A stretch of DNA of 64,000 nt from assembly GCA_029907255.1 (NCBI GenBank), contig JARYMF010000008.1, forward strand, positions 62,001 to 126,000, read 5' to 3'. This document shows positions 27,715 through 47,717 of the stretch, one piece after another. Under the pieces are notes generated by a model. It was not told the DNA's origin. It saw only the letters and a list, made by a program, of their open reading frames with translations, and ran no database searches. Within the stretch, counting starts at the first letter, position 1. Every line of letters begins with the position of its first letter. A program made the translations under genes and the position numbers. Source of the stretch: Armatimonadota bacterium (GTDB lineage: Bacteria; Armatimonadota; UBA5829; DTJY01).

Positions 27715-30525
27715 ATGTCACGGATTTCACTAATCCTTCTCACAGTGTTTGTGTTAGCAGCACTGTGGGCACCCCAAGCGGTGCTGTCTGCTGAGCACCG
27801 CGCCTTTTGGGTAGATGCATGGGGCTCAGGTTTCGAAAGCCCGTCGGTTACAACGGCGATGCTCGACTATGTCGATGCATGCAACTGCAACGCCGTCATA
27901 GTCGAGATGCGAAAACGTGGTGATGCCTATTACACGTCTTCTTACGAACCGACGGGGTGGAACGTAACCCCAGACCCAGGATATGATTGTCTTGCTGATA
28001 TAGTTCCGAAAGCCCATGCCCGTGGGCTCGAAGTACATGCGTGGGTTGTAGTCAACCGCGTTTGGACTTTCACAACCCCACCTCCGGAGACGACTCCACC
28101 ACACGTATACAACGCTCACCCCGAGTGGTTCTCTCTAACCGACACAGGCGAAATGTATGATTCCAGCAACGGAAGTTGGCTGGATCCCGGCCACCCTGAA
28201 GTCGAAAATTACCATAAGAACGTGTTTATGGAAATCATCACCAACTACGATATTGATGGTTTTTGCCTTGATTACATCCGCTATGCTGGTTCGAACTGGG
28301 GTTATAACCCCACCGCTGTAGCACGTTATAACGCCGAATACGGCCTCTCGGGCAACCCTCCAGCCAACGATTCTCAGTGGTCGGATTGGCGGCGAGACCA
28401 AGTAACTAATATGGTGAAGAGGATATATCTTGAGGCGAAAGCAGTTAAGCCGAACATCAAGATAGGCGCCGCAATTTGGAATAGTTCGACCACAGGCCGA
28501 AACACTTATTTCCAGGACTGGGATCTCTGGATGCAAAACCATTGGCTGGACTATGGCGCTCCAATGGCTTATTCCTCTAGCAATACGACGTTCAACTCCT
28601 GGGTGGATACATACTATAACCAGCAATATGGCCACCATCTGTATGTAATCCAGGGCTCATATATTAACACAATTAGCAACTCAATGACCCAGATAAGTTA
28701 TGTACAAAACAAACCAATGCCAGGAGTCCACTTGTACTGCTACCGCGTTACAAATAGCGGCACCGTTGATAGAGAAGCGTTCAAGAGTGCTCTGCTTGCC
28801 GGTCCATTTGCTACTTATCAGGATCCTCCAACTATGAGCTGGATTAGCAGTCCAACTTATGGCATGCTAAAAGGCTTCGTTAAAAACAGCAGTGGCGAAG
28901 TCGTTTACCCGGCTACTGTCACAATTCAAGGCAAGAGCACAAAAAATAGCGGCACAGGCTTCTACGGCTTCGTAGACCTTACTCCGGGAACGTACACGGC
29001 AACTGCAAGTGCCCCGGGTTATACTAATGGCTCAGGCCAGGTCACCATTACAGCGGGCCAGGTTGCCACGCTAGATATAACCCTCGGCTCAGATACCGCA
29101 CCGCCCATAATTTCCAACGTACGTACCTCGGATGTTCGAGCAACAATCGCCAAGATTCTATGGGATACAGACGAAGTTGCTACCAGCCAAGTGGAATATG
29201 GGCCTACCTCAACTTATGGATATCAAACGAGCGAGGATATGACTCTCGTCACTTCTCATACCGTACAACTTACCGGCCTAGTGCCCAGCACTTTGTATCA
29301 TTACCGAGTGAAGTCGAAGGATGCTGCAAACAACCAGGCAGTATCTGGTGACTATACGTTCGTGACAGCCTCTTCCGAAGTTGTAGATGATATTATCATT
29401 GACAATCCGCAATGTGAGTTGTATGGCTCTTGGTCTACAGGCACTTCTTCAACTGACAAATATGGAACGAACTACTACTACTGCACGACCGCCACTAGCG
29501 AAACCAAATGGGCAAAATGGCGGCCGAACATTCTCGTCGCTGGCAATTATGATGTGTACTGCTGGTATCCCCAGGGGAGTAACCGCTCGACGAGGGCGCC
29601 ATATACCGTGTATTGGAACGGCGGATCACAGTTGATTGAAGTTAATCAGCAGATTAACGGCGGCCAATGGAATCTGCTGGTCACCTCTAAGCCGCATGTA
29701 ATTGGGACAACGCAATATACCAAACTCGGGAACGGCACGGGTGAAACGTCGCTTAACGTGATGGCGGATGCTGTTAAGTACGTATTTGCAGCTGGTGCTG
29801 ATACTCAGCCACCAAGTGTGCCAACGAATCTTGCGGGTAATGCGGTTTCGCCCACCAGAGTCGACCTATCTTGGACAGCTTCCACTGATAACGTAGGAGT
29901 AGCTGGTTACAAAGTGTATCGCAATGGCAGCCAGATTGGCTCCATTACTGCGACTAGCTATTCGGATACGACCTGCACGGCTGGCACTACCTACACATAT
30001 ACAGTGAGTGCCTACGACGAAGCGCAAAACGAATCAGCACAGAGCAGTCCTGCGGTCGTTTCTACACCCGCAATTCAAAATCGAAATTACGCGCCTTCGT
30101 CGATAACCTTGACAAGAGGCACAGTAGCATCTGGCTCGGTGAGCAACTTGGCAACGAACGATGCTTCTTACTTGGTAATCAACTCACAAAGAGTCAGCAA
30201 TAAGTATTATACGGACTGGTACAGCAATGTCTTTATCTCTGAGGTTCCAAGCCATGTAAGCAAGCTAACCATCACTTATGATGGCAAGTTATCAAGCTCA
30301 CAGACGCAAAGCTTGCATCTGTGGAACTGGTCTACCTCTTCATGGACGCAAATCGACAGCAGAACTGTCGGTACTAGTGATGTTACGATTAATTGGAGCA
30401 CCACTTCTCCTTCTAATTATATCTCGTCAAGTGGTGAAATAAGGCTGCGGCAGTATGTCGGCGGTGTTAAGTCTAGCTTTTCATGCTCGGCCGATTTTGT
30501 CCAATTTGGAATTGAGTCCTGGTAG
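27715..30525 (+). CDS. Secreted GHL10-family glycosidase with FN3 and golvesin-like domains
   Basis: A 936-residue exported protein. Layout: signal peptide 1-26; GHL10 TIM barrel about 27-365 (HRAFWVDAWGSGF, PGYDCLADIVPKAHARGLEVHAWVVV, DGFCLDYIRYAG near 181-192, IGAAIWNSS); carboxypeptidase-regulatory-like beta domain about 380-460; purple-acid-phosphatase/FN3-like domain about 462-555; golvesin-like domain about 560-690; FN3 about 697-785; and an unrecognised C-terminal beta domain about 790-936. GHL10 proteins such as DigH cut peptidoglycan glycans lacking stem peptides, so a similar wall or polysaccharide substrate is likely. GGAAGGGAG precedes the ATG. It is paralogous to the genes at 34663 and 36530 and leads the secreted cluster. 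Confidence 0.88.
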   Translation: MSRISLILLTVFVLAALWAPQAVLSAEHRAFWVDAWGSGFESPSVTTAMLDYVDACNCNAVIVEMRKRGDAYYTSSYEPTGWNVTPDPGYDCLADIVPKAHARGLEVHAWVVVNRVWTFTTPPPETTPPHVYNAHPEWFSLTDTGEMYDSSNGSWLDPGHPEVENYHKNVFMEIITNYDIDGFCLDYIRYAGSNWGYNPTAVARYNAEYGLSGNPPANDSQWSDWRRDQVTNMVKRIYLEAKAVKPNIKIGAAIWNSSTTGRNTYFQDWDLWMQNHWLDYGAPMAYSSSNTTFNSWVDTYYNQQYGHHLYVIQGSYINTISNSMTQISYVQNKPMPGVHLYCYRVTNSGTVDREAFKSALLAGPFATYQDPPTMSWISSPTYGMLKGFVKNSSGEVVYPATVTIQGKSTKNSGTGFYGFVDLTPGTYTATASAPGYTNGSGQVTITAGQVATLDITLGSDTAPPIISNVRTSDVRATIAKILWDTDEVATSQVEYGPTSTYGYQTSEDMTLVTSHTVQLTGLVPSTLYHYRVKSKDAANNQAVSGDYTFVTASSEVVDDIIIDNPQCELYGSWSTGTSSTDKYGTNYYYCTTATSETKWAKWRPNILVAGNYDVYCWYPQGSNRSTRAPYTVYWNGGSQLIEVNQQINGGQWNLLVTSKPHVIGTTQYTKLGNGTGETSLNVMADAVKYVFAAGADTQPPSVPTNLAGNAVSPTRVDLSWTASTDNVGVAGYKVYRNGSQIGSITATSYSDTTCTAGTTYTYTVSAYDEAQNESAQSSPAVVSTPAIQNRNYAPSSITLTRGTVASGSVSNLATNDASYLVINSQRVSNKYYTDWYSNVFISEVPSHVSKLTITYDGKLSSSQTQSLHLWNWSTSSWTQIDSRTVGTSDVTINWSTTSPSNYISSSGEIRLRQYVGGVKSSFSCSADFVQFGIESW

Positions 30526-30531
30526 TAATTC

Positions 30532-30559
30532 GTGGGGTGGGTTACAAAGCCCACCCCAC
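30532..30559 (+). terminator. Perfect hairpin after the first GHL10 gene
   Basis: GTGGGGTGGG pairs fully with CCCACCCCAC around an eight-base loop, 7 bases after the stop codon. The following bases (TTAGACATTCT) are only weakly T-rich, so termination may be incomplete. Confidence 0.55.
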
Positions 30560-30786
30560 TTAGACATTCTAAGCTACCAAAGCGGAGAGGTGTTGCATAA
30601 AAACAAGGTTGTTGGTGAGTTAATTCTTCAGCCCGGCCAGTGATTGCTGGCTAATCAGAGACAAAATTCGCTGGGCTGGTGAATGCTTAGTTTAAGCTAG
30701 TCTGACAGTAAATAATCCAAAGGAAACTGAAAATTCGGTATCGGTCTATTTTATAGGAAGTTGTAGTAAGGAAGGTTGTCTAGCAG

Positions 30787-32925
30787 TTGCGTTTAGTAGT
30801 ATTTATACTCATCTTAAGTGCAGCAGTTGTTTGTGCTCTGCAAGGCTTTGTAATTGGCGCAGAAAGGGCAGAAGACGAAGGGAAAACCGCTTTTTATGAG
30901 CGGGTTTTGAAAGACGACCCCGGAAACGTAGAGGCTAACGTTTACTTCGCAGATAAAGCCTACCAAGCAGGCAAATTCGCTGATGCCATTGGGTACTACC
31001 AGACAGCCCTTGCCACTGAGCCCAACAATACCCAGCTAATAATTAAAGCCGCCAAAGCCTACGCATTGGCAAAACAGTCCAATGAAGCAGAGGCTATGTA
31101 CAACAGGGCGCTTTCGGTTGACCCGAAATGTGTTGATGCTCACTACGGCCTTGGTTTGTTGTGTGAGGCAAGGGGGCAATTTAAGGAGGCCGCAGAGCAT
31201 TTTGCAGTTGTATTTACAGCCCAACCAGACAACGCCGATATCAGATCGCGGTTGGCATATGCGTGGCTTAATATGGGACGCTATGAGGAGGCAGCAAATC
31301 TTTTTGAAAAGATTGCGGAGAACAACCCATCAGACCCGGTTCCTGTTAAGACACTTGTGCAGATTTACTTAGAAATGAAAAATGGTCCGAAAGCTGAGGC
31401 GGCTTTAAAGAAATATGCGGCTGACAATCCAGGAGATTTGTATGCTACGGAGCTCTTGGCACAGTTCTACGAGGAACGCGGTCGTTTGGATGAAGCTTTG
31501 GAGGCGTTTAGGGGATTTGTGCGGCAGAATCCTGGCAACAGGGATGGCGAGAATGCAATTGGCAACTTCTATCATAGACACAGGCAATTTGACAAAGCAG
31601 CCAAAGTATATGAGCAATTGGTAAAGGAGGACCCAAAAGACGAACGCGCGTGGACCAACCTTGTGAATACATATAGGGACTTGGGCCAGATTGAAAAAGC
31701 ACTTCAGGAAGCCGATAGGTGGATAGCTAGCGATCCAAACACTGCGGCTCCATATCGTCTAAAAGCAGCTATTTATAGGGAGCAAAAGCGGTTCAAGGAT
31801 GCGTTGCGGGCGCACGAAAGGAGCAAAGGGGCAGAACAGGGTAGCGTAGATCCTTATTTAGCAATTGCGGAAATCTATTGGAAAGACCTTGGTCAGCTAG
31901 ATAACGCTCTTCGAGAGTTAAAAGATGCAGCGAGGTTCTTTCCAATGGACCCCGTTGTGAAAAGGATGATGGTCGAGATTTACGAAGAGAAAAAGGATTA
32001 TGCCGCGGCGGTTGACATATTGCGCAGCATGGAAATGCTTGACCCAGACAATGTTCAGATTGGGCTGAACATATCGCGGCTTTTGTTGCTAGCTGGAAAG
32101 CCACAGGATGCTATTGCCGAATGCCAGAAACTTCTCGAGAAGGACAAGGAAAATCTGGGAATCTATGTGCGCCTTGCCGAAGCTTATGAGCAATTGGGGC
32201 AATTGGATGAAGCTATCAAAATCTACCAGAATTCTCCCCAAAAGAACTTAGAAGCTCAAGCCTGGGCAACAAGTCGCATATCTGCTGTTAAGGCAAAACA
32301 GGGCAAACTGGACGAGGCTATTGCTGGTTACAAATGGGTACTTGAGAGGTTTCCAGACGCCGATAAGCTGTACTCGGAGATTGTGAATTTGGAAATGCAG
32401 CGTGGCAGTATTGGTGAGGCAGTTAAATATCTCACCGAGCGGTTGAACAGTGGCTTGGAGCGGGAGGCCGCTGTTGAAGCGCTCATTGGCGCCTATGAGC
32501 TCCAAGGGTTGAAGCCTTCGGAAATAGCCGCAAAAGTACGCAAAGTCCAAGAGCAGTGTCCCAAAAACAAAACTGTTGCCTTTGAGCTTGTGGATTACTG
32601 TGAGCGAAATAAGCTTGAAGAGCTTTTAATCCAATCGTTGGAAGCTCTCCTTGAGGCCGACCCTGAGGCAATAGAGCAAAGATGTAAGTTAGCTCAGCTC
32701 TATGCCGCCTCTGGCCAAAACGCTCTGGCAATTCAGCATTTGCAGAAGGTTGTTGGCAAATCCGGGCACGACGCTGAAAACTATTACTTGCTAGGACAGC
32801 TTTTGGAGAAAGTTGGCAAGACGTCAGAGGCGATAGAGGCTTACACCAACGCTTGTGCTTTTGAAAACAAAGAAGCAGAGAAAGCACTTGAAAGGCTTAA
32901 AGCCAAAAATAACGCTGCTAAATAA
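30787..32925 (+). CDS. Large secreted tetratricopeptide-repeat protein
   Basis: A 712-residue protein with a signal peptide (about 1-26, VFILILSAAVVCALQGFVIGA) followed by tandem TPR units across essentially the whole length (for example ADAIGYYQTALATEPNN, SNEAEAMYNRALSVDPKC, EEAANLFEKIAENNPSD, DKAAKVYEQLVKEDPKD, DEAIAGYKWVLERFPD, SEAIEAYTNA). The start is TTG at 30787 behind AAGGAAGG; spacing is a little long. TPR solenoids scaffold protein complexes, so it may organise the surrounding exported enzymes in the periplasm or on the cell surface. No catalytic domain is visible. Confidence 0.85.
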   Translation: MRLVVFILILSAAVVCALQGFVIGAERAEDEGKTAFYERVLKDDPGNVEANVYFADKAYQAGKFADAIGYYQTALATEPNNTQLIIKAAKAYALAKQSNEAEAMYNRALSVDPKCVDAHYGLGLLCEARGQFKEAAEHFAVVFTAQPDNADIRSRLAYAWLNMGRYEEAANLFEKIAENNPSDPVPVKTLVQIYLEMKNGPKAEAALKKYAADNPGDLYATELLAQFYEERGRLDEALEAFRGFVRQNPGNRDGENAIGNFYHRHRQFDKAAKVYEQLVKEDPKDERAWTNLVNTYRDLGQIEKALQEADRWIASDPNTAAPYRLKAAIYREQKRFKDALRAHERSKGAEQGSVDPYLAIAEIYWKDLGQLDNALRELKDAARFFPMDPVVKRMMVEIYEEKKDYAAAVDILRSMEMLDPDNVQIGLNISRLLLLAGKPQDAIAECQKLLEKDKENLGIYVRLAEAYEQLGQLDEAIKIYQNSPQKNLEAQAWATSRISAVKAKQGKLDEAIAGYKWVLERFPDADKLYSEIVNLEMQRGSIGEAVKYLTERLNSGLEREAAVEALIGAYELQGLKPSEIAAKVRKVQEQCPKNKTVAFELVDYCERNKLEELLIQSLEALLEADPEAIEQRCKLAQLYAASGQNALAIQHLQKVVGKSGHDAENYYLLGQLLEKVGKTSEAIEAYTNACAFENKEAEKALERLKAKNNAAK

Positions 32926-32953
32926 AAAGATCTTTGAAAAGAATACAAGTTTA

Positions 32954-33099
32954 CCTATCATCGGATAGCGATGATAGGGTGGGCCTAGCAGGGGCTTGGT
33001 GGCCGTCCCTGCTGGGCACCATAAGGGTGCTAGGCCTGGCTTTGGATGCGGGCCAGGCTTGTGCCTTGGAGCCGACTTGTTTTGAAGCCGGCTCCAAGG
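32954..33099 (+). ncRNA. Structured 5' leader with consecutive strong hairpins
   Basis: Four elements follow each other. CCTATCATCG/CGATGATAGG (32954-32978) comes first. Next is a three-way junction closed by GGCCTA/TAGGCC (32982-33036), with inner stems GCAGGG/CCCTGC and GCACC/GGTGC. Then CCTGGC/GCCAGG (33035-33057, sharing bases with the junction), and CCTTGGAGCCG/CGGCTCCAAGG (33064-33099). The G+C content is far above the flanks. They lie between the TPR gene and the amidase-like gene, 40 bases before an extra strong ribosome-binding site. No known riboswitch class was recognised. Confidence 0.5.
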
Positions 33100-33152
33100 T
33101 ACCCCTGCAGCAAATAGCCGGAAACTGGCACCTGGAAGAAGGAGGTGATGAA

Positions 33153-33173
33153 TTGGTATTCGATTGCTCATAG
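33153..33173 (+). promoter_or_regulatory. Extra ribosome-binding site and mini-ORF upstream of the amidase-like gene
   Basis: AAGGAGGTGAT (33139-33149), almost the perfect complement of the 16S tail, is followed seven bases later by TTG GTA TTC GAT TGC TCA TAG. An overlapping ATG at 33148 would give 17 codons but lies too close to the site. The true gene start with its own GAGGAGG is 47 bases further on. Confidence 0.35.
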
Positions 33174-33219
33174 GCCACTTATTCACGAATGTGATACATA
33201 AGTTGAGGAGGAAAAATAA

Positions 33220-34284
33220 GTGAAGAGATTCAGCATTGTTTTATTGGTGTTGGCAGTGGCTCTTATAGCCGCTCCTACCTATGCGCTGAAAGTCTACTCA
33301 AATCCGAGTATCCAGACTAACAACGTGAGCCCTGACGGGACCTACAACGAAGGCTACTCAATGCAGAGCGTGTCGGACCTGTTCTGCGCGAAGTGCGCGA
33401 ATCGTGGCTTCTCAACAAGAGACAGCGACTGGCTGAGCCTTTCTGCTGCGTGCAGTGATGCAGATGCTTGGAACCCAAACTGCTTCATATCCGAGCATAC
33501 CAATGCGGCTGGCAGTGGAGGTTGGGATTCCAACCATGGCACGATGGGTTTGTATTACTGCAACAGTAGCTGCCAGTATGATGCTATTGACCGCAGCCTC
33601 TGCATTAAGTGCGTCGACAACTGCATTGCACAGTTTGCCACCGCCGGCCGAGGTGCCAAGTGGGGGGCAGGTTACTATGGCGACTACTGCTTCTACGGAA
33701 CGTATAACCTGTATGTGCTTTCTCATACGCCCGACATGAACTCGGTGTTGATTGAGGGTCTGTTCCACACCAATTACGAAGACTGCCAGTTGCTGAAGAC
33801 ATCGAACGGCAGAAATCTTTATGCAGAGGGTCTTTACGTTGGTGTGTGCCAGCAGTATGGTTATGACCCGTATCCTTCGCCAGACATCATTATAGACAAC
33901 ACAGATGCTGGCTTTTCATGCTCGGCAAACTGGGCCACCGGCACTATGGCCACCGACAAGTATGGCACCAATTACCGCTATAGAAGCACCGCTGCCACCA
34001 GCGACCCTGCCACCTGGACTCCGAACATTCCGACTGCAGGCAGCTGGACTATTTACGCATGGTGGACAGCTGGCACCAATAGGTCGCCGAACTCAGCCTA
34101 CCAGGTGTACTACAGTGGTGGAAGCACCAATGTCTACGTGAACCAGCAGACTAACGGAGGCAAGTGGAACGTGCTAACCACGCAGAATCTAGGCACAGGC
34201 ACAGGTTATCCGGTAAAGAAGTCCTGCTGGGCAACCACTGGCTATGTGGTAATTGCTGATGCCATAAAGTGGCATAAGAACTAA
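33220..34284 (+). CDS. Secreted divergent Amidase_3-like protein with golvesin-like domain
   Basis: A 354-residue exported protein with a signal peptide (1-23). Residues about 24-215 resemble N-acetylmuramoyl-L-alanine amidase (Amidase_3): CFISEHTNAAG matches the second zinc His region, and VLIEGLFHTNYEDCQLL the catalytic Glu strand. The first zinc His, normally in PGHGG, is absent: the region reads NPSIQTNNVSPDG. The domain is rich in Cys (CAKCANR, CNSSC, CIKCVDNC). Residues about 220-354 are a golvesin-like module (IIDNTDAGFSCSANWATGT to VVIADAIKWHKN). It may be inactive or use another metal ligand. The start is GTG at 33220 behind GAGGAGG. Confidence 0.75.
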   Translation: MKRFSIVLLVLAVALIAAPTYALKVYSNPSIQTNNVSPDGTYNEGYSMQSVSDLFCAKCANRGFSTRDSDWLSLSAACSDADAWNPNCFISEHTNAAGSGGWDSNHGTMGLYYCNSSCQYDAIDRSLCIKCVDNCIAQFATAGRGAKWGAGYYGDYCFYGTYNLYVLSHTPDMNSVLIEGLFHTNYEDCQLLKTSNGRNLYAEGLYVGVCQQYGYDPYPSPDIIIDNTDAGFSCSANWATGTMATDKYGTNYRYRSTAATSDPATWTPNIPTAGSWTIYAWWTAGTNRSPNSAYQVYYSGGSTNVYVNQQTNGGKWNVLTTQNLGTGTGYPVKKSCWATTGYVVIADAIKWHKN

Positions 34285-34352
34285 GCGTTAACGCTAAGGC
34301 GGGGGAATCCTCGCCTTGCTGGGAGTTGGCAGTTCGGCTTACTAGCCGGTTG

Positions 34353-34414
34353 CCGTCCTTGGCCCATGCGTTAGTAAAACAAAACATTTGGTTTAGCGCG
34401 TGGGCCAAGGACGG
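34353..34414 (+). other. 18-bp hairpin in the leader of the second GHL10 gene
   Basis: CCGTCCTTGGCCCATGCG (34353-34370) pairs with the segment 34397-34414 over all 18 positions, with a single G-U pair. Just upstream CGGCT/AGCCG forms a second small hairpin (34335-34347). There is no T-tract. The 378-base gap 34285-34662 otherwise holds the AAGGCG/CGCCTT hairpin after the stop and a mini-ORF at 34559. Confidence 0.6.
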
Positions 34415-34558
34415 GAGCATTTGCCAGACAAAACTCTTATTAAGAAAAATGTTAATTGTTCAAAACCCGGCCGCTCTACTAGGACCGTGCTCTTTGGGAC
34501 TAGGACGAAGGCGGCGGTTGGCCACCGAAGACCTATCGGCAATAAAAGGAGGTGGGAA

Positions 34559-34567: not shown

Positions 34568-34662
34568 GGCGTTTGGTTTTAAATAACCCGTCCTAAACGG
34601 GTCTAAAAGGGCAAAAAGGGTTTTGCCTGAATCAATTTTAGAAATTGAAAGGAGAAGATATT

Positions 34663-36456
34663 TTGAGGAAAACAGCGTTATTAATGTTAACCCTAATTGT
34701 TCTTTTTGCGGTGGCATCTCAAATACCAACAGATGCTGCAAAGTTTCGAGCATTTTGGGTAGATGCGTGGGGTTCAGGCTTCGAGAACCCAACAGCGACA
34801 ACGAATATGATAAATTACGTTGACGCATGTAACTGCAATGCGGTTATTCCGGAGGTAAGAAAGCGTTGTGATGCATACTATACTTCCAGCTACGAGCCTA
34901 CCGGTACAAGTGTTACGCCTCAAGCTGGTTATGACTGCTTGGCAGATATCGTGACCAAGGCGCATAACGCGGGGCTCGAGGTTCATGCTTGGGTGGTAGT
35001 CTACAGGGCGTGGACCAGCACTACTCCTCCGCCAACGACCGATCCGAACCACGTTTTTAACACCCACCCAGAATGGTTCTCCCTTACCTATTCGGGGTCC
35101 AAATTCGATGCAGAAAATAACAGCTTCCTAGATCCAGGCCATCCAAGTGTTGAGGACTACAACTGGAGCGTCTTCAGGGAAATAATCAACAACTACAATA
35201 TTGATGGCTTTGTTTTAGACTACATCCGCTATGCTGGAACGACCTGGGGTTACAATCCGACGGCTGTTGCTCGCTTCAATGCCGAGTATGGAAGGACGGG
35301 CACGCCCTCTACGTCGGATACCACATGGTGCAATTGGCGATGCGACCAGGTAACAAACATGGTAAAGAGGGTCTACCTGGAGGCTAAAGCACTTAAGCCC
35401 TCCATAAAAATTGGTGCGGCTGTTTGGAACTCTTCGACCACAGGAAAAAATAGCTACTTCCAGGATTGGGATTTGTGGATGAGCAACCACTGGTTGGATT
35501 ATGCCAGCCCAATGGCTTATACATCAAGCAACACAACCTTCAACTCGTGGGTGAACACCTATTACAACCAGCAATATGGTCGGCACATCTACGTTGCACA
35601 GGGGTCGTATCTTAACACAATAAGCAACTCAATGACCCAGATTAACTATGTCCAGAATAAGCCTATGCCTGGTGTAGAGTGTTACAGCTATCGAGTAACG
35701 AACAGCGGCACTGTTGATAGGGAAGGCTTCAAGAGCGCGTTGCTTTCAGGGCCGTTTGCAACCTATGAGTCAGTTCCAACGATGTCGTGGATTAGCAGCC
35801 CGACCTATGGCATGCTAAAGGGTAAGGTGAAGGATTCGGGTGGCAATCCCATCTATCCCGCAACTGTTACTATTCAAGGTAAGAGCACTAAGAATAGCGG
35901 CACGGGCTTCTATGGCTTCGTTGATTTGTCAACTGGAACTTACACAGTTACCGCTAGTGCAACAGGATACAACACCGCCAGTGCGAATGTAACTATCGTC
36001 GCCGGCCAGGTAAAGACCGTTGACTTTACGCTAACTCCTAGTGGAGGTGGCACGGAGATCATTATTGATAACTCAGACGGTGGTTTCTCTTGTTCTAGCA
36101 ATTGGTCGACTGGTACGTCTGCCACGGACAAGTATGGGACGAATTATCGCTATAGGAGCACTGCGGCGACGAGTGATCCTGCAACTTGGACTCCCAATAT
36201 TCCTAGCTCTGGTACTTGGGCAGTGTACGCATGGTGGAGTCAGGGAACAAATAGGTCTTCGAGTGCACCCTATATTGTTTACTACAGCGGCGGTAGCACC
36301 ACCGTCTACAAAAACCAACAGTCGAGCGGTGGTCAATGGAACCTTTTGACCACTAAGACTTTTGGTACCGGAACAGGCTATCCGACTCAATTGTCTTGTT
36401 GGACCACCACGGGTTATGTGGTTATTGCAGATGCCGTGAAGTGGGTTAAGCAGTAA
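34663..36456 (+). CDS. Secreted GHL10-family glycosidase with golvesin-like domain
   Basis: About 597 residues. TTG at 34663 is taken as start because AAAGGAG (34648-34654) lies eight bases upstream. Layout: signal peptide 1-25; GHL10 barrel about 26-365 (FRAFWVDAWGSGF, LEVHAWVVV, DGFVLDYIRYAG near 181-192, IGAAVWNSS); carboxypeptidase-regulatory-like domain about 378-455; golvesin-like domain about 463-597. It is the shortest of the three paralogues and lacks their FN3 parts. The same substrate class as the other two, probably glycan strands, is inferred. A long hairpin separates it from the next paralogue. Confidence 0.88.
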   Translation: MRKTALLMLTLIVLFAVASQIPTDAAKFRAFWVDAWGSGFENPTATTNMINYVDACNCNAVIPEVRKRCDAYYTSSYEPTGTSVTPQAGYDCLADIVTKAHNAGLEVHAWVVVYRAWTSTTPPPTTDPNHVFNTHPEWFSLTYSGSKFDAENNSFLDPGHPSVEDYNWSVFREIINNYNIDGFVLDYIRYAGTTWGYNPTAVARFNAEYGRTGTPSTSDTTWCNWRCDQVTNMVKRVYLEAKALKPSIKIGAAVWNSSTTGKNSYFQDWDLWMSNHWLDYASPMAYTSSNTTFNSWVNTYYNQQYGRHIYVAQGSYLNTISNSMTQINYVQNKPMPGVECYSYRVTNSGTVDREGFKSALLSGPFATYESVPTMSWISSPTYGMLKGKVKDSGGNPIYPATVTIQGKSTKNSGTGFYGFVDLSTGTYTVTASATGYNTASANVTIVAGQVKTVDFTLTPSGGGTEIIIDNSDGGFSCSSNWSTGTSATDKYGTNYRYRSTAATSDPATWTPNIPSSGTWAVYAWWSQGTNRSSSAPYIVYYSGGSTTVYKNQQSSGGQWNLLTTKTFGTGTGYPTQLSCWTTTGYVVIADAVKWVKQ

Positions 36457-36502: not shown

Positions 36503-36529
36503 AGGCAGTTAAGAGAGAAGGTGATGGAG

Positions 36530-39304: not shown

Positions 39305-39329
39305 ACGCCGAGTACTCGGCACGGCGCGA

Positions 39330-39367: not shown

Positions 39368-39386
39368 GGGAATAAGGAGGACAAGT

Positions 39387-41276
39387 ATGTATAGGAACAA
39401 GTCCTTGAAAGTTGTTTTTTCGCTGTGGTTGATGGCGGCATTTGTTTGCTTGTGTGGTAATGCTGGATTGGGAGCTGATGCTAATAAACTTTTTGGAATT
39501 CATTGGTGGGGACATACCCAAGGAATAGGTGTAGATACTGCTCCAAGGAGCCTGTTGGATGTGCCGACGTATTCAGCTTGGGATACAGAGACCGTTCTCA
39601 CTCACAGCGATTACTGGTGGGGACCTTCGTATTTCGCTGATCTTTATTCTACCCTCTATGGGTGGAACGTGAGCTTAATTACAAGGGTTGATTATACCTG
39701 GAATGATACCATTCCTGCGCCAAGCGACCCTAATTATTCTAGCTGGCCGTTGGTAGTTGTAAATAACGTGGTTAATGTGCTTAAAAACCAGTGCCATATC
39801 TGGATAGTAGGTAATGAACCGAATATCCTGTGTGCAGAGGGAAGCTTGTGGCCTGATAGGAAGATTCAGCCAGCGCAGTATGCCCAGGTATACCGCAGTG
39901 TTCGGAATGCGATACACCAGAGCGCAAGCGTTGGTCCTCCTGGACAGCATATAGTTTTGCTCGCGGGACCCAGCTATGGTCCTGTGGAGGGCGTGCGGTG
40001 GATGGCGGGCAAGGATTATCTTGCCCAAACTCTCGACAATCTCTCCCCAAACGAAGTGGATGGGTTTGCTCTTCATGCTTATGGTTGGACCCTATCGGAG
40101 TTTCAAGACCAATATCGCACCCAAATTCGAATCATTGACCAAAAAGGCTTTGGCAACAAACCCATTTGGATTACGGAATTTGGGCGGTATACCATCGATG
40201 ACAACGATGAGCAGAACAGCGCCCAATTTGTTAGAGATGCATTTGCGGACGTAAACGCATGGAACCAGACGCCAGGTAATCGAGATATAATCGGCATGAC
40301 ATGGTTTGTTTACGATTGCAATCAGCAGGCTAGTGGTGGTTGGAACAATTGGGCAATTGAGTATTGGAAGGACCATGGTTTCCCTAGTGGAGATTCGCGC
40401 GACCTATTCACTGCTTTTCAGCAGGCGGTCGACCAGCGGTATGCTGCGGGTACCTGGGGAAATCTTGAGTTTATCGTAGATAATCCATCCGCTACTTTCA
40501 CCGGTACATGGTATACGGGAACATTGGCCACTGATAAATATGGTTCGGATTACCGGTATGCAACCACAGCGCCGAGTGAAACGGCAACTGCAATTTGGCG
40601 GCCAAACATCACTATGGCGGGCAACTATGATGTCTACGCATGGCATTCTCAGGGCAGTAATAGGTCTGCTGCGGTACCGCATACCGTGTATTGGAACGGC
40701 GGCTCCCAAACAGTGAACATTAACCAAACAACCAATGGCGGACGCTGGAACGTTTTGGTGAGCTCCAAGCCATTCGCCACAGGGACAAATGGCTATGTGA
40801 AAGTTGGCAATGGCACAGGCGAGTCGAGCAAAGTCGTTATGGCCGACGCAATGCGATTTATGTGCCTTCAGCCCGTAGACCTCATAGTTGATAACTCAGA
40901 TGCCGGATTTAGTGCGTCAGCCAACTGGAGCACTGGAACGATAGCGAAGGACAAATATGGTCCAAACTATAGATTTAGGCAAACGCAAGCTACGAGTGAC
41001 CCAGCGACTTGGACGTTCAGCCTGCCAGTGTCTGGAAGATATGAGGTGTATGCTTGGTGGTCGGCAGGCACTAATAGGTCGGCTACTGCGCCTTACATTG
41101 TGTACTACAGCGGTGGCTCGCAGACTGTGGTTAAGAATCAGCAAACAAATGGCGGCACGTGGAACAGCTTGGGTGCTTGGGAGTTCGCTAGCGGGAGCAA
41201 TCAGGTGAAGCTTTCCTGCTGGACTACAACAGGCTACGTTGTTATTGGAGATGCTGTACGAATGGTTCTGCGCTGA
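39387..41276 (+). CDS. Secreted clan-A glycoside hydrolase-like protein (GH39/GH5-like) with two golvesin-like domains
   Basis: A 629-residue exported protein. ATG 39387 follows AAGGAGG; an upstream extension lies within the preceding gene. A signal peptide (about 1-32) leads a TIM barrel of about 340 residues. This has the clan-A pair: WIVGNEPN with the likely acid/base Glu (about 145) and WITEFGRYT with the likely nucleophile Glu (about 264), plus DGFALHAYGW and MTWFVYDCNQ. Two golvesin-like modules follow (about 367-490 FIVDNPSATFTGTWYTGT and about 495-629 LIVDNSDAGFSASANWSTGT). The substrate is unknown; sharing modules with GHL10 and amidase neighbours points to the same polymer. Confidence 0.83.
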   Translation: MYRNKSLKVVFSLWLMAAFVCLCGNAGLGADANKLFGIHWWGHTQGIGVDTAPRSLLDVPTYSAWDTETVLTHSDYWWGPSYFADLYSTLYGWNVSLITRVDYTWNDTIPAPSDPNYSSWPLVVVNNVVNVLKNQCHIWIVGNEPNILCAEGSLWPDRKIQPAQYAQVYRSVRNAIHQSASVGPPGQHIVLLAGPSYGPVEGVRWMAGKDYLAQTLDNLSPNEVDGFALHAYGWTLSEFQDQYRTQIRIIDQKGFGNKPIWITEFGRYTIDDNDEQNSAQFVRDAFADVNAWNQTPGNRDIIGMTWFVYDCNQQASGGWNNWAIEYWKDHGFPSGDSRDLFTAFQQAVDQRYAAGTWGNLEFIVDNPSATFTGTWYTGTLATDKYGSDYRYATTAPSETATAIWRPNITMAGNYDVYAWHSQGSNRSAAVPHTVYWNGGSQTVNINQTTNGGRWNVLVSSKPFATGTNGYVKVGNGTGESSKVVMADAMRFMCLQPVDLIVDNSDAGFSASANWSTGTIAKDKYGPNYRFRQTQATSDPATWTFSLPVSGRYEVYAWWSAGTNRSATAPYIVYYSGGSQTVVKNQQTNGGTWNSLGAWEFASGSNQVKLSCWTTTGYVVIGDAVRMVLR

Positions 41277-41393
41277 GCAGCTTATTTTTCAAGCAGTTTG
41301 AAAGCGGAGGTAATTAGGTTTCAAATCTGGCGAAGCCTTTGAAATAAATTGAAATATCATGCACTCGGCTAACAGCCGGAAGGAGAGGAGGTG

Positions 41394-41429
41394 GTGTTTA
41401 GAGAAGAAGGGATATTAATTGTAAAGTAA
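41394..41429 (+). promoter_or_regulatory. Extra ribosome-binding site with a possible 11-codon mini-ORF
   Basis: GGAGAGGAGG (41382-41391) precedes GTG at 41394, which opens MFREEGILIVK and a TAA. A small hairpin CGGCT-AAC-AGCCG lies just upstream (about 41365-41377). The amidase start at 41472 has its own AGAAGGAGG. This is the least clean case of the repeated leader pattern. Confidence 0.28.
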
Positions 41430-41471
41430 ACGTAATTTCAACAAAAAGAAATTAGAAGGAGGATTTGAGAA

Positions 41472-42491
41472 ATGAGGACACTTTGCATCATTTGTTTCGC
41501 TCTGCTTTGCTCGTCGGTGGCATTTGCCGGCGTTGCTGGGCAGAAAATCTGCATTGACCCGGGCCATGGCGGCTCGGACCCAGGTGCTGTAGGATTCGGG
41601 CTAGAGGAAGAGGATGTCAATCTTGATATTGGCCTCAGGGCTCGGAATCTATTCCAGCTTGACGGCGCTACGGTCATTATGACCCGAACGTCAGACGTAT
41701 ATGTGTCGCTGCAGGGCCGCTGCGACATCGCCAACAACAATGGTGCGAACAGGTTCATTTCCACCCATTGCAATGCTGCCAGTGATAGTAGCGCAAATGG
41801 CACAGAGACTTTCTGCTGTGCAGGATGTAGCGCCACGTCATATGATCTCCGGAATAAGGTTAATCCGGAGTTGGTTTCCCATATGCAGACCGTCAACAGA
41901 GGTGTGAAGACTGCCGACTTCTATGTGCTTGTAAATACCAATATGCCGGCAATCCTGGGCGAGGTGGCCTTCATAACCAACGCCGCAGACAATGCTAAGC
42001 TTGCGAGCGGAACATGGCGACAGGAAGCCGCACGGGCATACCTGCATGGCACGCAGAGCCACTATGGCGAAGTGCCGCACGACCCAGTGAGCGATATTAT
42101 AATTGACAATAGCTCCGGCTCGTTCTCCTGTTCAGCCAATTGGGCTACCGGCACAAGCGCCGCAGACAAGTATGGAAGCGACTATCGCTGGAGAAGCACA
42201 GCTGCGACCAGCGATCCAGCTACTTGGACGCCTAACATACCTGTAGCAGGCAGCTGGACGGTTTATGCATGGTGGACAGCTGGCACCAACAGGTCGCCAA
42301 ACTCGGCTTATCAGATAAACACGACGAGTGGCGCCGTCAATGTTTACGTAAACCAGCAGACCAACGGCGGCCAGTGGAACTCGCTCGGCTCGTTTGACCT
42401 CGGAACAGGCGGTTATTGGGTCAAGAAGTCTTGCTGGGCATCCACCGGCTATGTTGTTATAGCAGACGCCATTAAGTGGCATAAGAACTAG
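41472..42491 (+). CDS. Secreted N-acetylmuramoyl-L-alanine amidase (Amidase_3) with golvesin-like domain
   Basis: A 339-residue exported zinc amidase that would cut the bond between MurNAc and the stem peptide. Signal peptide 1-19. Zinc ligands are His in IDPGHGGSDPGA (about 29-40), Glu in LEEEDVNLDI and His in ISTHCNAAS; the catalytic Glu is in ILGEVAFITN. An unusual CCAGC motif sits in the loop ETFCCAGCSATSYD. The golvesin-like domain spans about 205-339. The catalytic domain closely matches the gene at 47088 and the module matches the amidase-like gene at 33220. AGAAGGAGG precedes the ATG. Confidence 0.92.
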   Translation: MRTLCIICFALLCSSVAFAGVAGQKICIDPGHGGSDPGAVGFGLEEEDVNLDIGLRARNLFQLDGATVIMTRTSDVYVSLQGRCDIANNNGANRFISTHCNAASDSSANGTETFCCAGCSATSYDLRNKVNPELVSHMQTVNRGVKTADFYVLVNTNMPAILGEVAFITNAADNAKLASGTWRQEAARAYLHGTQSHYGEVPHDPVSDIIIDNSSGSFSCSANWATGTSAADKYGSDYRWRSTAATSDPATWTPNIPVAGSWTVYAWWTAGTNRSPNSAYQINTTSGAVNVYVNQQTNGGQWNSLGSFDLGTGGYWVKKSCWASTGYVVIADAIKWHKN

Positions 42492-42509
42492 TCTAGTTTG
42501 ACCGGGCCT

Positions 42510-42539
42510 TGTGGGGGCAGGCTTTGTCTTGCCCCCACA
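42510..42539 (+). terminator. Hairpin after the amidase gene
   Basis: TGTGGGGGCA pairs exactly with TGCCCCCACA across a ten-base loop, 18 bases after the stop. It is followed by TAAAAGAC, not by a T-tract, so termination efficiency is uncertain. Confidence 0.5.
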
Positions 42540-42674
42540 TAAAAGACATAACCTAATCTGCATGGCTACTCTGTCTGGAGCGGAATAGGGCATGTTACAA
42601 AATCGGTTAGGGCGGAAAGAATCGGCAAAATGACGAAAGTTTATATGCCGCCAATCAAAAAGCGGGAGATTTGC

Positions 42675-43748
42675 ATGAAATATTTACGGTTATTTTTGAT
42701 AGTAAGTTGTTTGACTTATGTTTTCATTATGCCCTCATGTGCTCAAAGGGTAGAGCTTCTCAAAGAAGAGGGTGGTGCTGTCGAGAATCCGCCTGAGAGC
42801 CTCCAGCTTGAATACAAGTTCAAAGTAGGTGATGTTCGAAAGTATGACATCAACATTGATGGCGAAGGCATGATGAGGCTGCCAGGCCAAGACGAACAAT
42901 CGAAGCTGGAAGCTCGAACAACAATGAGAGCCGTTCAACATGTGATTGCTCAACTCCCTTCAGATGGGGGCTGGCGTATTGAGTGGGATACAATTAAAGC
43001 CACACTGCTCATACCAGAGTTCGGCGAGATATTTATGACTGTTCCACATATCGAATATGAGGCGGATAAATATGGTAAGGTTAAAAAGCTAAAGGGCCTT
43101 GACGAACTTGCCGTTTGCCCTGGACTGCCTCAGCAGAAAACCTTAGGCAATGTTCTTAACCAACTGCCTTTTGGAGGATTTCCTCGGAAGGAAGTAAAGC
43201 CCGATGAAACTTGGGAAGACTTGTATGAGATTCAGATTCCAGGTCAGCAAGCTACTAGGATAAAGGTAAAATCAAGGCTTATGGGCTTTGAGAGAATTCG
43301 AAACTTCGATTGTGCCAAAATTGAAACCACCTACGAAGCACCATTCACTCTAGATTTGAGCAAGCTTCGAAAATCTGATAGGGCTGCAAAAACTTCGGAA
43401 ATAAAAGACAAGTCTGAAGAAAAATTAACCAACGAATCTGAGAATAAACAGCCAGAAAAGCCGCAGATTATTTCTGGAACGGAGACAGGCAGTGTCTGGA
43501 CCTACTTTGCATATAAAGAGGGCTTCACAGTTCAAGTTTATGCACAAGTAGACTTGCATGCAGACATCCAAGATGACGAAGAATCAACCGCAGTTAAACC
43601 CATTGACAGCAGAGCAATTGTGCCAGTAGGGGATGAATCTCCAGATACCCACAAAATAGAGCACGATGTAGACTTGAGATACTTGACGGTATGCTTGCTT
43701 GTGCCTGAAGACGATAAAGAGGAGGAGCAAACAAAAAATGAGAAGTGA
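42675..43748 (+). CDS. Secreted DUF6263-like protein, copy 1
   Basis: A 357-residue exported protein. ATG 42675 is chosen since GGGAG precedes it; an earlier ATG at 42630 would put 15 hydrophilic residues before the signal sequence. The signal runs MKYLRLFLIVSCLTYVFIMPSCAQ. The mature part has LEYKFKVGDVRKYDINIDGEGMM, FMTVPHIEYEADKYGKVKKLKGL, LLIPEFGE and a charged Lys/Glu-rich stretch (about 238-265). It resembles the DUF6263 type of secreted beta-proteins, but I hold that loosely. It overlaps the propeller gene by 11 bases. The gene at 44946 is its paralogue. Confidence 0.72.
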   Translation: MKYLRLFLIVSCLTYVFIMPSCAQRVELLKEEGGAVENPPESLQLEYKFKVGDVRKYDINIDGEGMMRLPGQDEQSKLEARTTMRAVQHVIAQLPSDGGWRIEWDTIKATLLIPEFGEIFMTVPHIEYEADKYGKVKKLKGLDELAVCPGLPQQKTLGNVLNQLPFGGFPRKEVKPDETWEDLYEIQIPGQQATRIKVKSRLMGFERIRNFDCAKIETTYEAPFTLDLSKLRKSDRAAKTSEIKDKSEEKLTNESENKQPEKPQIISGTETGSVWTYFAYKEGFTVQVYAQVDLHADIQDDEESTAVKPIDSRAIVPVGDESPDTHKIEHDVDLRYLTVCLLVPEDDKEEEQTKNEK

Positions 43749-44802
43749 GCCTGTCTATAAGCGCAATTTAATTTTACCAATTTTATGTTTGTTTGTTTTC
43801 ATGGCTGTGCCGGTTTTTGCATTTCAGCTGGGTGAGGGTGTTGCTCTTCCGGTGCCGGTTCCAGGCTTGTTCAACGTGCCAAAGTGGGCGCCAGATGGAA
43901 GCGGCTTAGCATTCACAGGCGAACGCTATACTGGTTTATATTACACAGACCTGGCTGGCAACGTCTCGGTGATATCTGATGCGAAGCTTGCGGGATGGCG
44001 CTATCAATGGTCTCCCGATGGCCAAAGCTTGATATATAGGATTCGTAGCGAAGATGGGATGGGTTTAGCACTAATGCAGGCGAAAAGAGGAGAGGCTGGT
44101 TCAAAGCAGCTCACTCCTTTTCTGAACGATTTGTTTCCACCAAGATGTGGAAAGGATGGGATAACCTATAGGTCGGGCGACGAGCTCATCACAATAGACG
44201 AGGAAGGCAACGTAATCTCAGTCCACAGTTTGTCCCAGGGACGAGGTGTTATGTCACGGGTTATGAGCGTGGCGGCAAATCTTATGCTTGGCAGAATCAC
44301 GGGGGCGACTTTCACTAGTTTTGCTTGTGCGCTTTCCAGCGAGGCGGCAGACGGCAAACCAGGAAGCGGTGTCTATGTGGATTCTGAGAGCCAGATATGG
44401 ATTGTTGATGAAAATGGTAACCGTCGAAAGCTTATCGACGTCGAAGGCGAACCAGGGTACTGTCCTCCGACTGAGTCACCGCAAGGAGACAAATATTGTG
44501 TAGAGGGATATAGTGGCAACCTTTATGTAGTTGATCCAAGGGGAGGCACCCCAGTTAATTTAGGAGAAGGGCATAACCCATCGTGGTCGCCGGATGGCAG
44601 ATATGTAATTTTTGAGGTAACAACGGATGATGGGCATATAATTACTTCATCGGACCTTTGGATTGCTAGCATAGACGGTAGCCAAAGATTTCAGCTTACT
44701 AGTACGCCTGGCATCGAGGCGGACCCATCTTGGTCGCCCGACGGTAAGTATATTGCTTATATTTTGGACGGCAAGATTTATATTGCTCCAATTGAACCCT
44801 AA
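43738..44802 (+). CDS. Secreted PD40/TolB-like beta-propeller protein, copy 1
   Basis: A 354-residue exported protein with a signal peptide (about 8-30) and repeated propeller blades carrying the PD40 motif SWSPDGRYVIFEVTTDDG, WSPDGQSLIYRIRS, WAPDGSGLAFTGERY and SWSPDGKYIAYILDGK. ATG 43738 has GAGGAGGAG upstream and overlaps the preceding gene, so the two are coupled. Such propellers usually mediate protein-protein contacts in the periplasm, as TolB does. There is no TolB N-terminal domain. The copy at 45938 has the same length and motif order. Confidence 0.82.
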   Translation: MRSEPVYKRNLILPILCLFVFMAVPVFAFQLGEGVALPVPVPGLFNVPKWAPDGSGLAFTGERYTGLYYTDLAGNVSVISDAKLAGWRYQWSPDGQSLIYRIRSEDGMGLALMQAKRGEAGSKQLTPFLNDLFPPRCGKDGITYRSGDELITIDEEGNVISVHSLSQGRGVMSRVMSVAANLMLGRITGATFTSFACALSSEAADGKPGSGVYVDSESQIWIVDENGNRRKLIDVEGEPGYCPPTESPQGDKYCVEGYSGNLYVVDPRGGTPVNLGEGHNPSWSPDGRYVIFEVTTDDGHIITSSDLWIASIDGSQRFQLTSTPGIEADPSWSPDGKYIAYILDGKIYIAPIEP

Positions 44803-44945
44803 GGCAAGCAGTAGTGCTAAAAGGGTTAGGCTTCAATTGCTGGGAGGCAATTAGCTTGGATGCGAACCCAAAACACATGGACGTGTTAAAAATATAAGTT
44901 TATAAGTTACACGTATAACTTAAGCTGAGAGGAGGGATATAAAAG

Positions 44946-45941
44946 GTGAAAAGAGCTATCGCAATTTTTTGCACATTGTTACTTTGCCTCCTTTCGGCTG
45001 CATTGCTTCCAATCAGAGCCGAAGACACTGGTGCAAAAAATGAAAAGATAGAAAAGGTGGAGAATCCACCGGCTAGCGTCAACCTTGAGTACAAATTCAA
45101 GGTAGGCGAGATGCGCAGATACAACATGACGATAGACGCCTCGGGTGTTTTTGCGTTGCCGAAGGGGACGAATGAGACGGAGTTTGAAACGCACACTTGG
45201 CTGACTGTTATACAACATGCAACGGCTTACCTTCCAAAAGAAGATGTTTGGAAGCTTGAATTGGATGTTCTCAGTGCAACCCTTTCAATTCCTAACTTTG
45301 GCGAAACTTTGATGACCTTCCCGCCACTCGACCTAGAAGTAGATAAATATGGGCAAGTTCGAAAAATTAAGGGCATCGAAGAGCTGAAAACCAGCGGCTT
45401 GCCAAAGGATAGAACTATAGAAAATATCCTAAGCCAGCTGAAGTTTCTTGGTTTACCACAAAAAGAACTTCACGTCGGGGATACTTGGGAACAGGAATAC
45501 CCTATTGAGGCGCTTGACCAGTCGGTAACAGTGAAGACGGTCTCAAAGTTGGTTGGTTTTGAACGGGTTGATGGGGTAGATTGCGCAAAAATTGAGAGCA
45601 CATTTGAAGTGCCATTCAAGTTTGAGATGAAGAAGAGTGAAAATTCTGAAGCCAAAAGTTCTTCTACAAAAGAGGCGCCAAAGAGATTTCTTGTTGGCAC
45701 TGAAAAAGGGGAGCATGTGACCCATTTTGCGTATGAGGAAGGCAAAGTAATGCGCGCGCAAGCTACTATAACACTTATCGCCGATATTAAATCTGAAGGT
45801 AACGAGTCGGATAAGAACAATTCCACATCTGCCCTAAATAACGAAGGTTCCGCCGACGAGCGGCATGACCTCAACATCAAATATGTATTGGTTTCCAAAT
45901 TTGATCCTGAGCTTCCCATAAACTTGGAGGAAAAAGAATGA
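44946..45941 (+). CDS. Secreted DUF6263-like protein, copy 2
   Basis: A 331-residue exported protein paralogous to the gene at 42675. Shared blocks include ENPPASVNLEYKFKVGEMRRY, LSIPNFGETLMTFPPL, EVDKYGQVRKIKGIEEL and DLNIKYVLVSKF. It begins with GTG at 44946 behind GAGGAGGG, with signal KRAIAIFCTLLLCLLSAALLPIRA. Its stop overlaps the start of the next propeller gene (ATGA). The function of the family is unknown to me; constant pairing with the propeller suggests a physical partnership. Confidence 0.72.
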   Translation: MKRAIAIFCTLLLCLLSAALLPIRAEDTGAKNEKIEKVENPPASVNLEYKFKVGEMRRYNMTIDASGVFALPKGTNETEFETHTWLTVIQHATAYLPKEDVWKLELDVLSATLSIPNFGETLMTFPPLDLEVDKYGQVRKIKGIEELKTSGLPKDRTIENILSQLKFLGLPQKELHVGDTWEQEYPIEALDQSVTVKTVSKLVGFERVDGVDCAKIESTFEVPFKFEMKKSENSEAKSSSTKEAPKRFLVGTEKGEHVTHFAYEEGKVMRAQATITLIADIKSEGNESDKNNSTSALNNEGSADERHDLNIKYVLVSKFDPELPINLEEKE

Positions 45942-46981
45942 GAGCAATGCATGCAGTTTTAATGCTTGGTCTGGCGATTTGCTTGGTTGTATTACCTGCT
46001 AGCGCTTTTCAGCTTGGTACTGGAGTTGCACTTCCCCTGCAAGGTCAGTTTGTCAGCCCTGTTTGGTCGCCAACCGGCGAAGGTCTTGCTTTGGCCGGAG
46101 ACAGGTTTCAAGGGCTTTACTATACTGATTTGATGGGCAATCTAAAGGTAATCTCCGATGCATCGCTTTCGGGATGGAAATTCTCCTGGTCGCCTGATGG
46201 CCAGGCGCTTGCGTATAGAATGCGGCAGGGTGATGACGATGTAGCAATGGCTGCTATGGTAGCTGGCATGGATGGGAAAGTTCAGCAGGTTTCTCCTTGG
46301 GAAAACGATTTACTACCGCCGAAGTGGGGCAAGGATGGCTTAACATATCGCTCAGGTGACGAACTTGTTACGGTTGATAAGGATGGAAATGTTAAGAGCA
46401 CGTACAGCCTTACGCAAGGTCGGGGGTTGTTATCGAAAATCGTAAACATCTTTGGCACATTCATGCTTATGGATGTAACAGGGGCTACTTTCGCTGCTTA
46501 TGGGTCCCTTTTAAGCGTGGAGCAGGCGGAAGTAAAGCCTCCAGTGGGAGTGTATGTTGATTCTGACAACCAGCTTTGGGCTATTGATGAAAACGGCAAT
46601 CGCAAGAAGTTACTCGAGGGTGAGGATGAAGCAGGCTTCAACACGCCGGTGGAGTCGCCCGATGGGGATAAGTACGCGGTTGAAGGTTTTGGTGGCAAGA
46701 TATACGTTGTTGATAAGAAGGGCGGATTGCCAGTTGACCTAGGTCCGGGAAGTAATCCCTCATGGTCGCCGGATGGAAGATACTTAATTTATGAAGTTAC
46801 ATCTGACGATGGCCATTCCATTCTTTCATCCGACCTGTGGGTTTCAAGCGTTGATGGACTTGAGCGATATCAGCTCACTAACACGCCCGGGATTGAATCG
46901 TGGCCAAGCTGGTCGCCAGATGGAAAGTACATCGCCTATGTAGTTGACGGCGTTGTATATATTGCTCCAATCCAACCCTAA
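45938..46981 (+). CDS. Secreted PD40/TolB-like beta-propeller protein, copy 2
   Basis: A 347-residue exported propeller, paralogue of the gene at 43738. The signal peptide is at about 1-23 (LMLGLAICLVVLPASA), followed by FQLGTGVALPLQGQ, VWSPTGEGLALAGDRFQGLYYTDL, SWSPDGQALAYRMRQ, SWSPDGRYLIYEVTSDDG and SWSPDGKYIAYVVDGVVYIAP. TTGGAGG lies 10 bases upstream of the ATG. It completes the second copy of the two-gene cassette. Confidence 0.83.
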   Translation: MRAMHAVLMLGLAICLVVLPASAFQLGTGVALPLQGQFVSPVWSPTGEGLALAGDRFQGLYYTDLMGNLKVISDASLSGWKFSWSPDGQALAYRMRQGDDDVAMAAMVAGMDGKVQQVSPWENDLLPPKWGKDGLTYRSGDELVTVDKDGNVKSTYSLTQGRGLLSKIVNIFGTFMLMDVTGATFAAYGSLLSVEQAEVKPPVGVYVDSDNQLWAIDENGNRKKLLEGEDEAGFNTPVESPDGDKYAVEGFGGKIYVVDKKGGLPVDLGPGSNPSWSPDGRYLIYEVTSDDGHSILSSDLWVSSVDGLERYQLTNTPGIESWPSWSPDGKYIAYVVDGVVYIAPIQP

Positions 46982-47016
46982 GGGGTTTGGAGCTATGTAC
47001 GCAAAGGAGGTGGTCT

Positions 47017-47025
47017 ATGAGTTAA
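47017..47025 (+). promoter_or_regulatory. Two-codon mini-ORF (ATG AGT TAA) with a strong ribosome-binding site
   Basis: AAAGGAGG (47003-47010) sits six bases before ATG AGT TAA. The amidase start at 47088 follows 62 bases later with its own AAAGGAGG. It is the cleanest example of the mini-ORF leader pattern in the cluster. Confidence 0.42.
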
Positions 47026-47087
47026 AAGAACGTATGTAGGGCACACTGCACCTATTTTACGGAAAACTGGAAAGGAGGAATTTGTAA

Positions 47088-47717
47088 ATGAGAAAGATGC
47101 TAACTGTAATTTGCATGCTGTCGCTGGTGATTTGTCTTGCTTCCGGCGTCAGCGCCCACCTTACGGGCAAGAAAATCTGCATTGACCCGGGTCATGGTGG
47201 CTCGGACCCAGGCGCAGTAAGTGGCGGTTATGAAGAGGAAGACATCAACCTTGCAATTGGTAACAGGATGAATGTCCGCTTCATTAATGATGCGGCTTCA
47301 ACAAAAATGACAAGGACAAGCGATGTCTACGTTTCCCTCTCAAGCAGGTGCTCGATAGCCAACACATGGGGAGCAAATAGGTTCGAAAGCACCCACTGCA
47401 ATGCTTTCAGCGACAGCTCGGCTAACGGCACGGAGACCTACTGCTGCCCTGGTTGCAGCACCTATTCCTATGACCTGCGTAACAAGGTTAACCCTGAACT
47501 CGTTTCCCATATGGGAACGGTAAATAGGGGTGTAAAGACAGCTTCGTTCACAGTGCTGACCGGGACAACGATGCCTGCAATTCTGGGCGAGGTTGCGTTC
47601 ATAACCAACACCGCCGACCGCAACAAACTCATAAGCTCGACATATCAGGATTATGCAGGCATTGCTTACCTGCATGGAACGCAGAGCCACTATGGCGTAA
47701 CCCCGCACACCCATTAA
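47088..47717 (+). CDS. Secreted N-acetylmuramoyl-L-alanine amidase (Amidase_3), catalytic domain only
   Basis: A 209-residue exported amidase with signal peptide (about 1-24) and a complete catalytic domain: IDPGHGGSDPGAV, YEEEDINLAIG, ESTHCNAFSD and ILGEVAFITN supply the two zinc His, zinc Glu and catalytic Glu. The loop carries CCPGC, as in the amidase at 41472. It ends after HGTQSHYG and lacks any golvesin-like module, so it may be a diffusible form of the same activity. AAAGGAGGA precedes the ATG. A strong terminator follows. Confidence 0.92.
   Translation: MRKMLTVICMLSLVICLASGVSAHLTGKKICIDPGHGGSDPGAVSGGYEEEDINLAIGNRMNVRFINDAASTKMTRTSDVYVSLSSRCSIANTWGANRFESTHCNAFSDSSANGTETYCCPGCSTYSYDLRNKVNPELVSHMGTVNRGVKTASFTVLTGTTMPAILGEVAFITNTADRNKLISSTYQDYAGIAYLHGTQSHYGVTPHTH

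Follow-up and report, generated by a model that had tools for sequence, protein, structure and literature searches.

The best-studied GHL10 proteins, DigH of E. coli and Cwp19 of Clostridioides difficile, cut peptidoglycan (PMC12288456, PMC6016235), and for DogH, a GHL10 protein of Deinococcus, cleavage of starch and cellobiose has been reported (PMC9967864). The active-site motif of DigH reads DGVQFDDYFY, and the second Asp of DDYFY is Asp196 in Cwp19, a catalytic residue that was proposed from the structure but is not proven (PMC5765458). SPOR domains read the free lactyl carboxylate via Arg and Gln (PMC6895207). For golvesin-type modules, no link to peptidoglycan was found in the literature searched, and related Bacteroides lectins bind N-glycans (PMC9166713).

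The window analysed here is a 64,000-nucleotide stretch of DNA from an Armatimonadota bacterium. In line with the original prediction, open reading frames and Pfam searches place three GHL10 proteins, three Amidase_3 proteins, one glycosyl-hydrolase-core protein and eight Golvesin_C modules in one plus-strand run (27715-47717), and a signal-peptide-like segment lies at the start of all 12 genes. The first gene encodes G1 (27715..30525), a secreted protein that contains a GHL10 domain (27781-28767), CarboxypepD_reg and PAP_N-like/fn3 regions, a golvesin module (29386-29784), a further fn3 domain and a GH114_assoc-like C-terminus. It is followed by an exported TPR protein (30787..32925) and by A1 (33220..34284), in which a variant Amidase_3 domain (~33415-33849) precedes a golvesin module (33880-34278). 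G2 (34645..36456) combines GHL10 (34732-35715), CarboxypepD_reg and one module (36052-36450), and G3 (36521..39304) combines GHL10 (36608-37594) with two modules (38219-38620 and 38897-39295). The next protein, H (39387..41276), carries two modules (40467-40865 and 40878-41270); it had been labelled GH39/GH5-like, which is only roughly right, Pfam assigning the 39240/39387 ORF to Glyco_hydro_cc (E 3e-9), and a PDB search with its catalytic part gave no match. A2 (41472..42491) joins a canonical Amidase_3 domain (41547-42050) to a module (42090-42485), and the run ends with A3 (47088..47717), a canonical Amidase_3 (47175-47678) that lacks the module, leaving two module-bearing amidases as predicted. 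Between A2 and A3 lie two tandem pairs of genes with overlapping ends (42630-46981): the exported DUF6263-like D1 (42630..43748) with the exported PD40/TolB-like beta-propeller PD1 (43738..44802), and the second copies D2 (44946..45941) and PD2 (45938..46981), which overlap by 4 bases. Both pairs, which belong to the conserved cluster, and the TPR protein had been overlooked by the original prediction. The sole Rfam match is a tRNA.

The domain assignments are well supported. The three GHL10 (PF02638) proteins show profile matches with E-values of 6e-44 (ORF 27715), 1e-39 (34645) and 1.5e-37 (36521), together with a TIM-barrel fold, and the Amidase_3 matches reach 1e-11 (33220, a partial match to profile positions 47-173), 1e-51 (41472) and 3e-45 (47088). 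All eight Golvesin_C (PF25275) modules score above the curated cut-off, with E < 1e-27 for each carrier protein and the best stretches covering ~130 of 132 profile positions. We consider it probable that the run encodes secreted accessory peptidoglycan-degrading enzymes that share a wall-glycan-binding carbohydrate-binding module (CBM). Under such a scheme, amidases A1-A3 would cut stem peptides from MurNAc, the GHL10 enzymes G1-G3, perhaps together with H, would cut the wall glycan, the repeated golvesin-type module would hold the enzymes on that glycan, and the exported DUF6263-like and TolB-like propeller proteins would act as conserved partners. Three parts of this scheme are inferred from the comparisons below: the identity of the glycan as peptidoglycan, its binding by the module and the successive action of the enzymes.

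The catalytic domains were inspected for active-site residues. A2 and A3 retain the zinc ligands His/Glu/His and the catalytic Glu of Amidase_3 (DPGHGG, Glu, THCNA and GEVAF). A1 does not keep all three zinc ligands: SIQTNN stands in place of DPGHGG, with the later His and Glu retained. Despite the loss of this first zinc-ligand motif, selection on A1 is strongly purifying (dN/dS 0.041), and the protein may be a non-catalytic binder or a user of other metal ligands. The GHL10 fold of G2 is predicted at pLDDT 91, and its nearest solved structure is Cwp19 (TM 0.81), followed by PgaB. The run GHL10s share this fold but differ from Cwp19 in active-site type, because the second Asp of DDYFY is not conserved and Tyr or Arg occupies its position. 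All three, like nearly all other GHL10s of the genome, read DGxxxD[YRF][IV]R or close variants (DYIRY/DRIRY); DDYFY is found in none of this genome's GHL10 copies, and the analogy to DigH on which the original prediction drew is thus not supported. Module-linked GHL10s of other genomes are likewise not of the DDYFY type, and DDYFYP copies occur in other Armatimonadota. No biochemistry of GHL10s with the active site seen in the run was found in the literature searched.

The fold of the A2 golvesin module is predicted at pLDDT 97.8. The closest solved structure is the xanthan lyase 6F2P; CBM35 and CBM6 modules come next, together with MiXBM, which, judging by its name, is presumably a xanthan-binding module; weak profile similarity is observed to CBM35s solved with uronic acids. 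The predicted structure thus has a CBM35-like fold and not the SPOR (RNP) fold. These structural neighbours, together with the N-glycan-binding Bacteroides lectins, show that the module belongs to a glycan-binding family of mixed ligands. A golvesin module also occurs on a lyase of Haloarcula, an archaeon that has no peptidoglycan, and therefore peptidoglycan is not the sole ligand of the family.

In several phyla, golvesin modules ride on at least six unrelated kinds of enzyme, namely Amidase_2, Amidase_3, M23, GH25, S13 and GHL10 proteins, and they are also found on heparinase-, pectate-lyase- and FAD-oxidoreductase-type proteins. Since peptidoglycan is the common substrate of Amidase_2, Amidase_3, M23, GH25 and S13, the most economical reading is that this branch of the module family binds the wall, and fusion to and neighbourhood with module-bearing amidases tie the GHL10s to the same role. 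The competing view is that the enzymes act on a capsule, a matrix or an environmental acidic polysaccharide and that the amidases merely share a general glycan-binding module. The closest solved module comes from a xanthan lyase, heparinase-, pectate-lyase- and GH-type proteins are among the carriers, and DogH, for which action on starch is reported, is a GHL10 protein, all of which fit this view; nevertheless, we regard it as unlikely, given that the module is repeatedly linked to several unrelated families specific to peptidoglycan, that one protein fuses Amidase_2 with GHL10 and that amidase catalytic residues are intact. In a tree of modules, changes between wall-enzyme and other carriers number 31, against 70 when shuffled, and those between amidase and GHL10 carriers 14, against 45; carriers thus cluster by partner, indicating that modules mostly travel with their own enzyme. 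Within the run, the G2 module is closest to that of A1.

The same carriers bear on the proposal that the module is a SPOR analogue, which recognises denuded strands, so that the amidases would make its ligand and thereby recruit the GHL10 enzymes to cut. Consistent with this proposal, CBM35 complexes, whose fold the module resembles, have been solved with uronic-acid ligands, Arg274 and Gln295/296 of A2 show higher conservation on amidase and GHL10 modules than on others, and amidase and GHL10 genes are paired. However, the xanthan lyase module has these Arg/Gln positions too, and the run GHL10s are not DigH-type. Moreover, M23 and S13 peptidases need stem peptides, and the presence of the module on them argues against a strict or obligatory specificity for denuded strands. 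We therefore consider a SPOR-like reader rather unlikely and favour a module that would bind wall glycan more generally.

Profile searches of the whole 3.23 Mb genome give 23 GHL10 matches, 28 golvesin modules, nine Amidase_3 and one SPOR, so the concentration in the run is far beyond chance; AnmK is present. Of the 19 golvesin proteins, six carry GHL10, four Amidase_3, one both GHL10 and Amidase_2, and eight something else. The protein with both (L008:4655-11755, G000:C6) is a single 2366-aa chain that unites Amidase_2 and GHL10 and bears four golvesin modules; the congener has a 2385-aa counterpart. The only SPOR protein (L019:8700-12256) is one gene away from a GHL10-TPR protein that lacks a golvesin module. 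Three further proteins (L010:6176-9202, L013:5610-8582 and L013:8873-12541) combine a Germane domain with a variant Amidase_3 that has a large insertion and lacks DPGHGG, two of the three with golvesin modules. On the minus strand of L016 (6811-9487), a GHL10 ORF precedes a golvesin ORF that overlaps it in a different frame, possibly owing to a frameshift in the gene or the assembly.

The cluster is conserved. In the congener G123 it is intact, with unchanged order and proteins 95-99% identical, and every cluster gene has a dN/dS of 0.02-0.15 (0.058 for G1 and 0.052 for G3); the TPR protein is kept there, and none was found adjoining the cassette elsewhere. Of the downstream genes tested in G123, DUF2961 is retained, and MauG and OM genes are absent. 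A same-family genome (G005, L137) has a compact form with GHL10-golvesin, Amidase_3-golvesin, Amidase_3, DUF6263-like and PD40 genes, including a G1 ortholog (L137:9290-12466) that is 74% identical. Another family (G107/L035) keeps Amidase_3-golvesin, DUF6263-like and PD40, and a Sumerlaeota genome (L046) PD40 and Amidase_3-golvesin.

The search for co-occurrence of GHL10, Amidase_3 and the golvesin module shows that the combination recurs in other genomes. A contig scan of 78 loci, seeded with an amidase-borne module and hence biased upward in its amidase fraction, gave 100 golvesin proteins, 56 with an amidase, 21 with GHL10 and 23 others, the last including M23 (2), GH25 (1), S13 (1), Astacin (2) and M28 (1). 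Five amidase-golvesin proteins of Myxococcota and Gemmatimonadota (L071, L083, L089, L092 and L097) have a conserved N-terminal SLT-like domain; it was not counted, its E-values (0.002-0.02) falling short of the Pfam cut-off and its best PDB match having an E of 0.37. A less biased, even sample of 121 Armatimonadota gave 93 golvesin proteins, of which 28 carry GHL10, 15 an amidase and 50 something else; among 40 of these others scanned are pectate-lyase-like proteins (12), FAD oxidoreductases (9), PQQ (4), GHL15 (3) and heparinase (2). As for gene order, Amidase_2-golvesin is followed by golvesin-GHL10 at six Planctomycetota loci, Amidase_2-, Astacin- and GHL10-golvesin genes are neighbours in Gemmatimonadota, and GHL10 adjoins Amidase_2- or Amidase_3-golvesin in Armatimonadota. 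An amidase adjoins GHL10-golvesin genes in 8/49 cases versus 2/71 (p 0.014), and module-bearing amidases show no significant excess of GHL10 neighbours over other carriers of the module (p 0.19). Across the class, the numbers of modules and of GHL10s correlate with a rho of 0.89 in 15 genomes, which are not independent in phylogeny; outside the class the correlation is weak (0.23). Collectively, the neighbouring genes, the one-protein fusion and the M23, GH25 and S13 carriers bear out the predicted role of a shared module in joining amidases and glycosidases, most likely on peptidoglycan.

The DUF6263-like/propeller pairs are kept next to amidases with the golvesin module in other families, and PD40 propellers flank Amidase_2-, M23- or GHL10-golvesin genes in Myxococcota, Gemmatimonadota, Verrucomicrobiota and Sumerlaeota. 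Of 115 amidase or GHL10 genes that bear the module, 8 are flanked by a TolB-like propeller, where a hand estimate based on the 4 propellers found across 1117 kb of background would predict ~1. Such neighbours, and the discovery of DigH through tol-pal mutants (PMC12288456), would fit a set that serves the cell's own division, with a role in daughter-cell separation like that of DigH and AmiA-C in E. coli. PD1 and PD2, however, score 66 and 61 bits against a TolB (TIGR02800) equivalog cut-off of 343, and by sequence are propellers that only resemble TolB. The Amidase_3 copies of this genome whose size is that found in nearly all genomes of the phylum are encoded elsewhere and lack the module, and the only SPOR protein is likewise encoded elsewhere; the module is absent in 68/121 sampled Armatimonadota, and the run proteins are multi-copy, long, multidomain and secreted. 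Septal use of the run is therefore unlikely and a division system improbable; a role in handling dead or foreign walls, as in scavenging or predation, or in general turnover is likelier.

If the modules bind the wall, they would constitute a new kind of wall-targeting module for little-studied phyla, and would help annotate many proteins that currently go by "xanthan lyase-like" or "golvesin". The run also points to a large class of GHL10s that lack the DigH/Cwp19 motif and whose chemistry is directly testable. A bolder reading, which we hold doubtful, is that one golvesin CBM branch is an unrecognised peptidoglycan-binding, non-SPOR reader of denuded strands that recognises the amidase-freed MurNAc lactyl carboxylate and, in many phyla, links amidases with a second class of GHL10 whose active site differs, with TolB-like propellers as dedicated partners.

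A comparison with known systems shows that the run resembles E. coli DigH, AmiA/B/C and the SPOR proteins in its pairing of amidases with the GHL10 fold and in the proposed strip-then-cut order; however, its GHL10s have DYIRY where DigH has DDYFY, its proteins are multidomain and multi-copy, and a golvesin CBM takes the place of the SPOR domain. Cwp19 (5OQ2), the closest structure, likewise unites a GHL10 TIM barrel and a wall-binding module on one secreted protein, yet identity is 22% and its wall-binding module consists of CWB2 repeats rather than golvesin. The C-terminal domain of the Paenibacillus xanthan lyase belongs to the same module family (33% identity, TM 0.89, NQQxNGGxW motif), but the enzyme that carries it is a polysaccharide lyase with xanthan as its substrate. 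CBM35/CBM6 modules such as the CsxA CBM35 (2VZR) share the predicted fold and, at low identity, a weak profile similarity over residues 35-115. Lastly, the Bacteroides lectins Cbeg4 and Cbeg5 (IPR033803 CBM) are of the same domain group and have been shown to bind glycans, but they recognise N-glycan Gal-GlcNAc-Man motifs and carry no attached enzyme.
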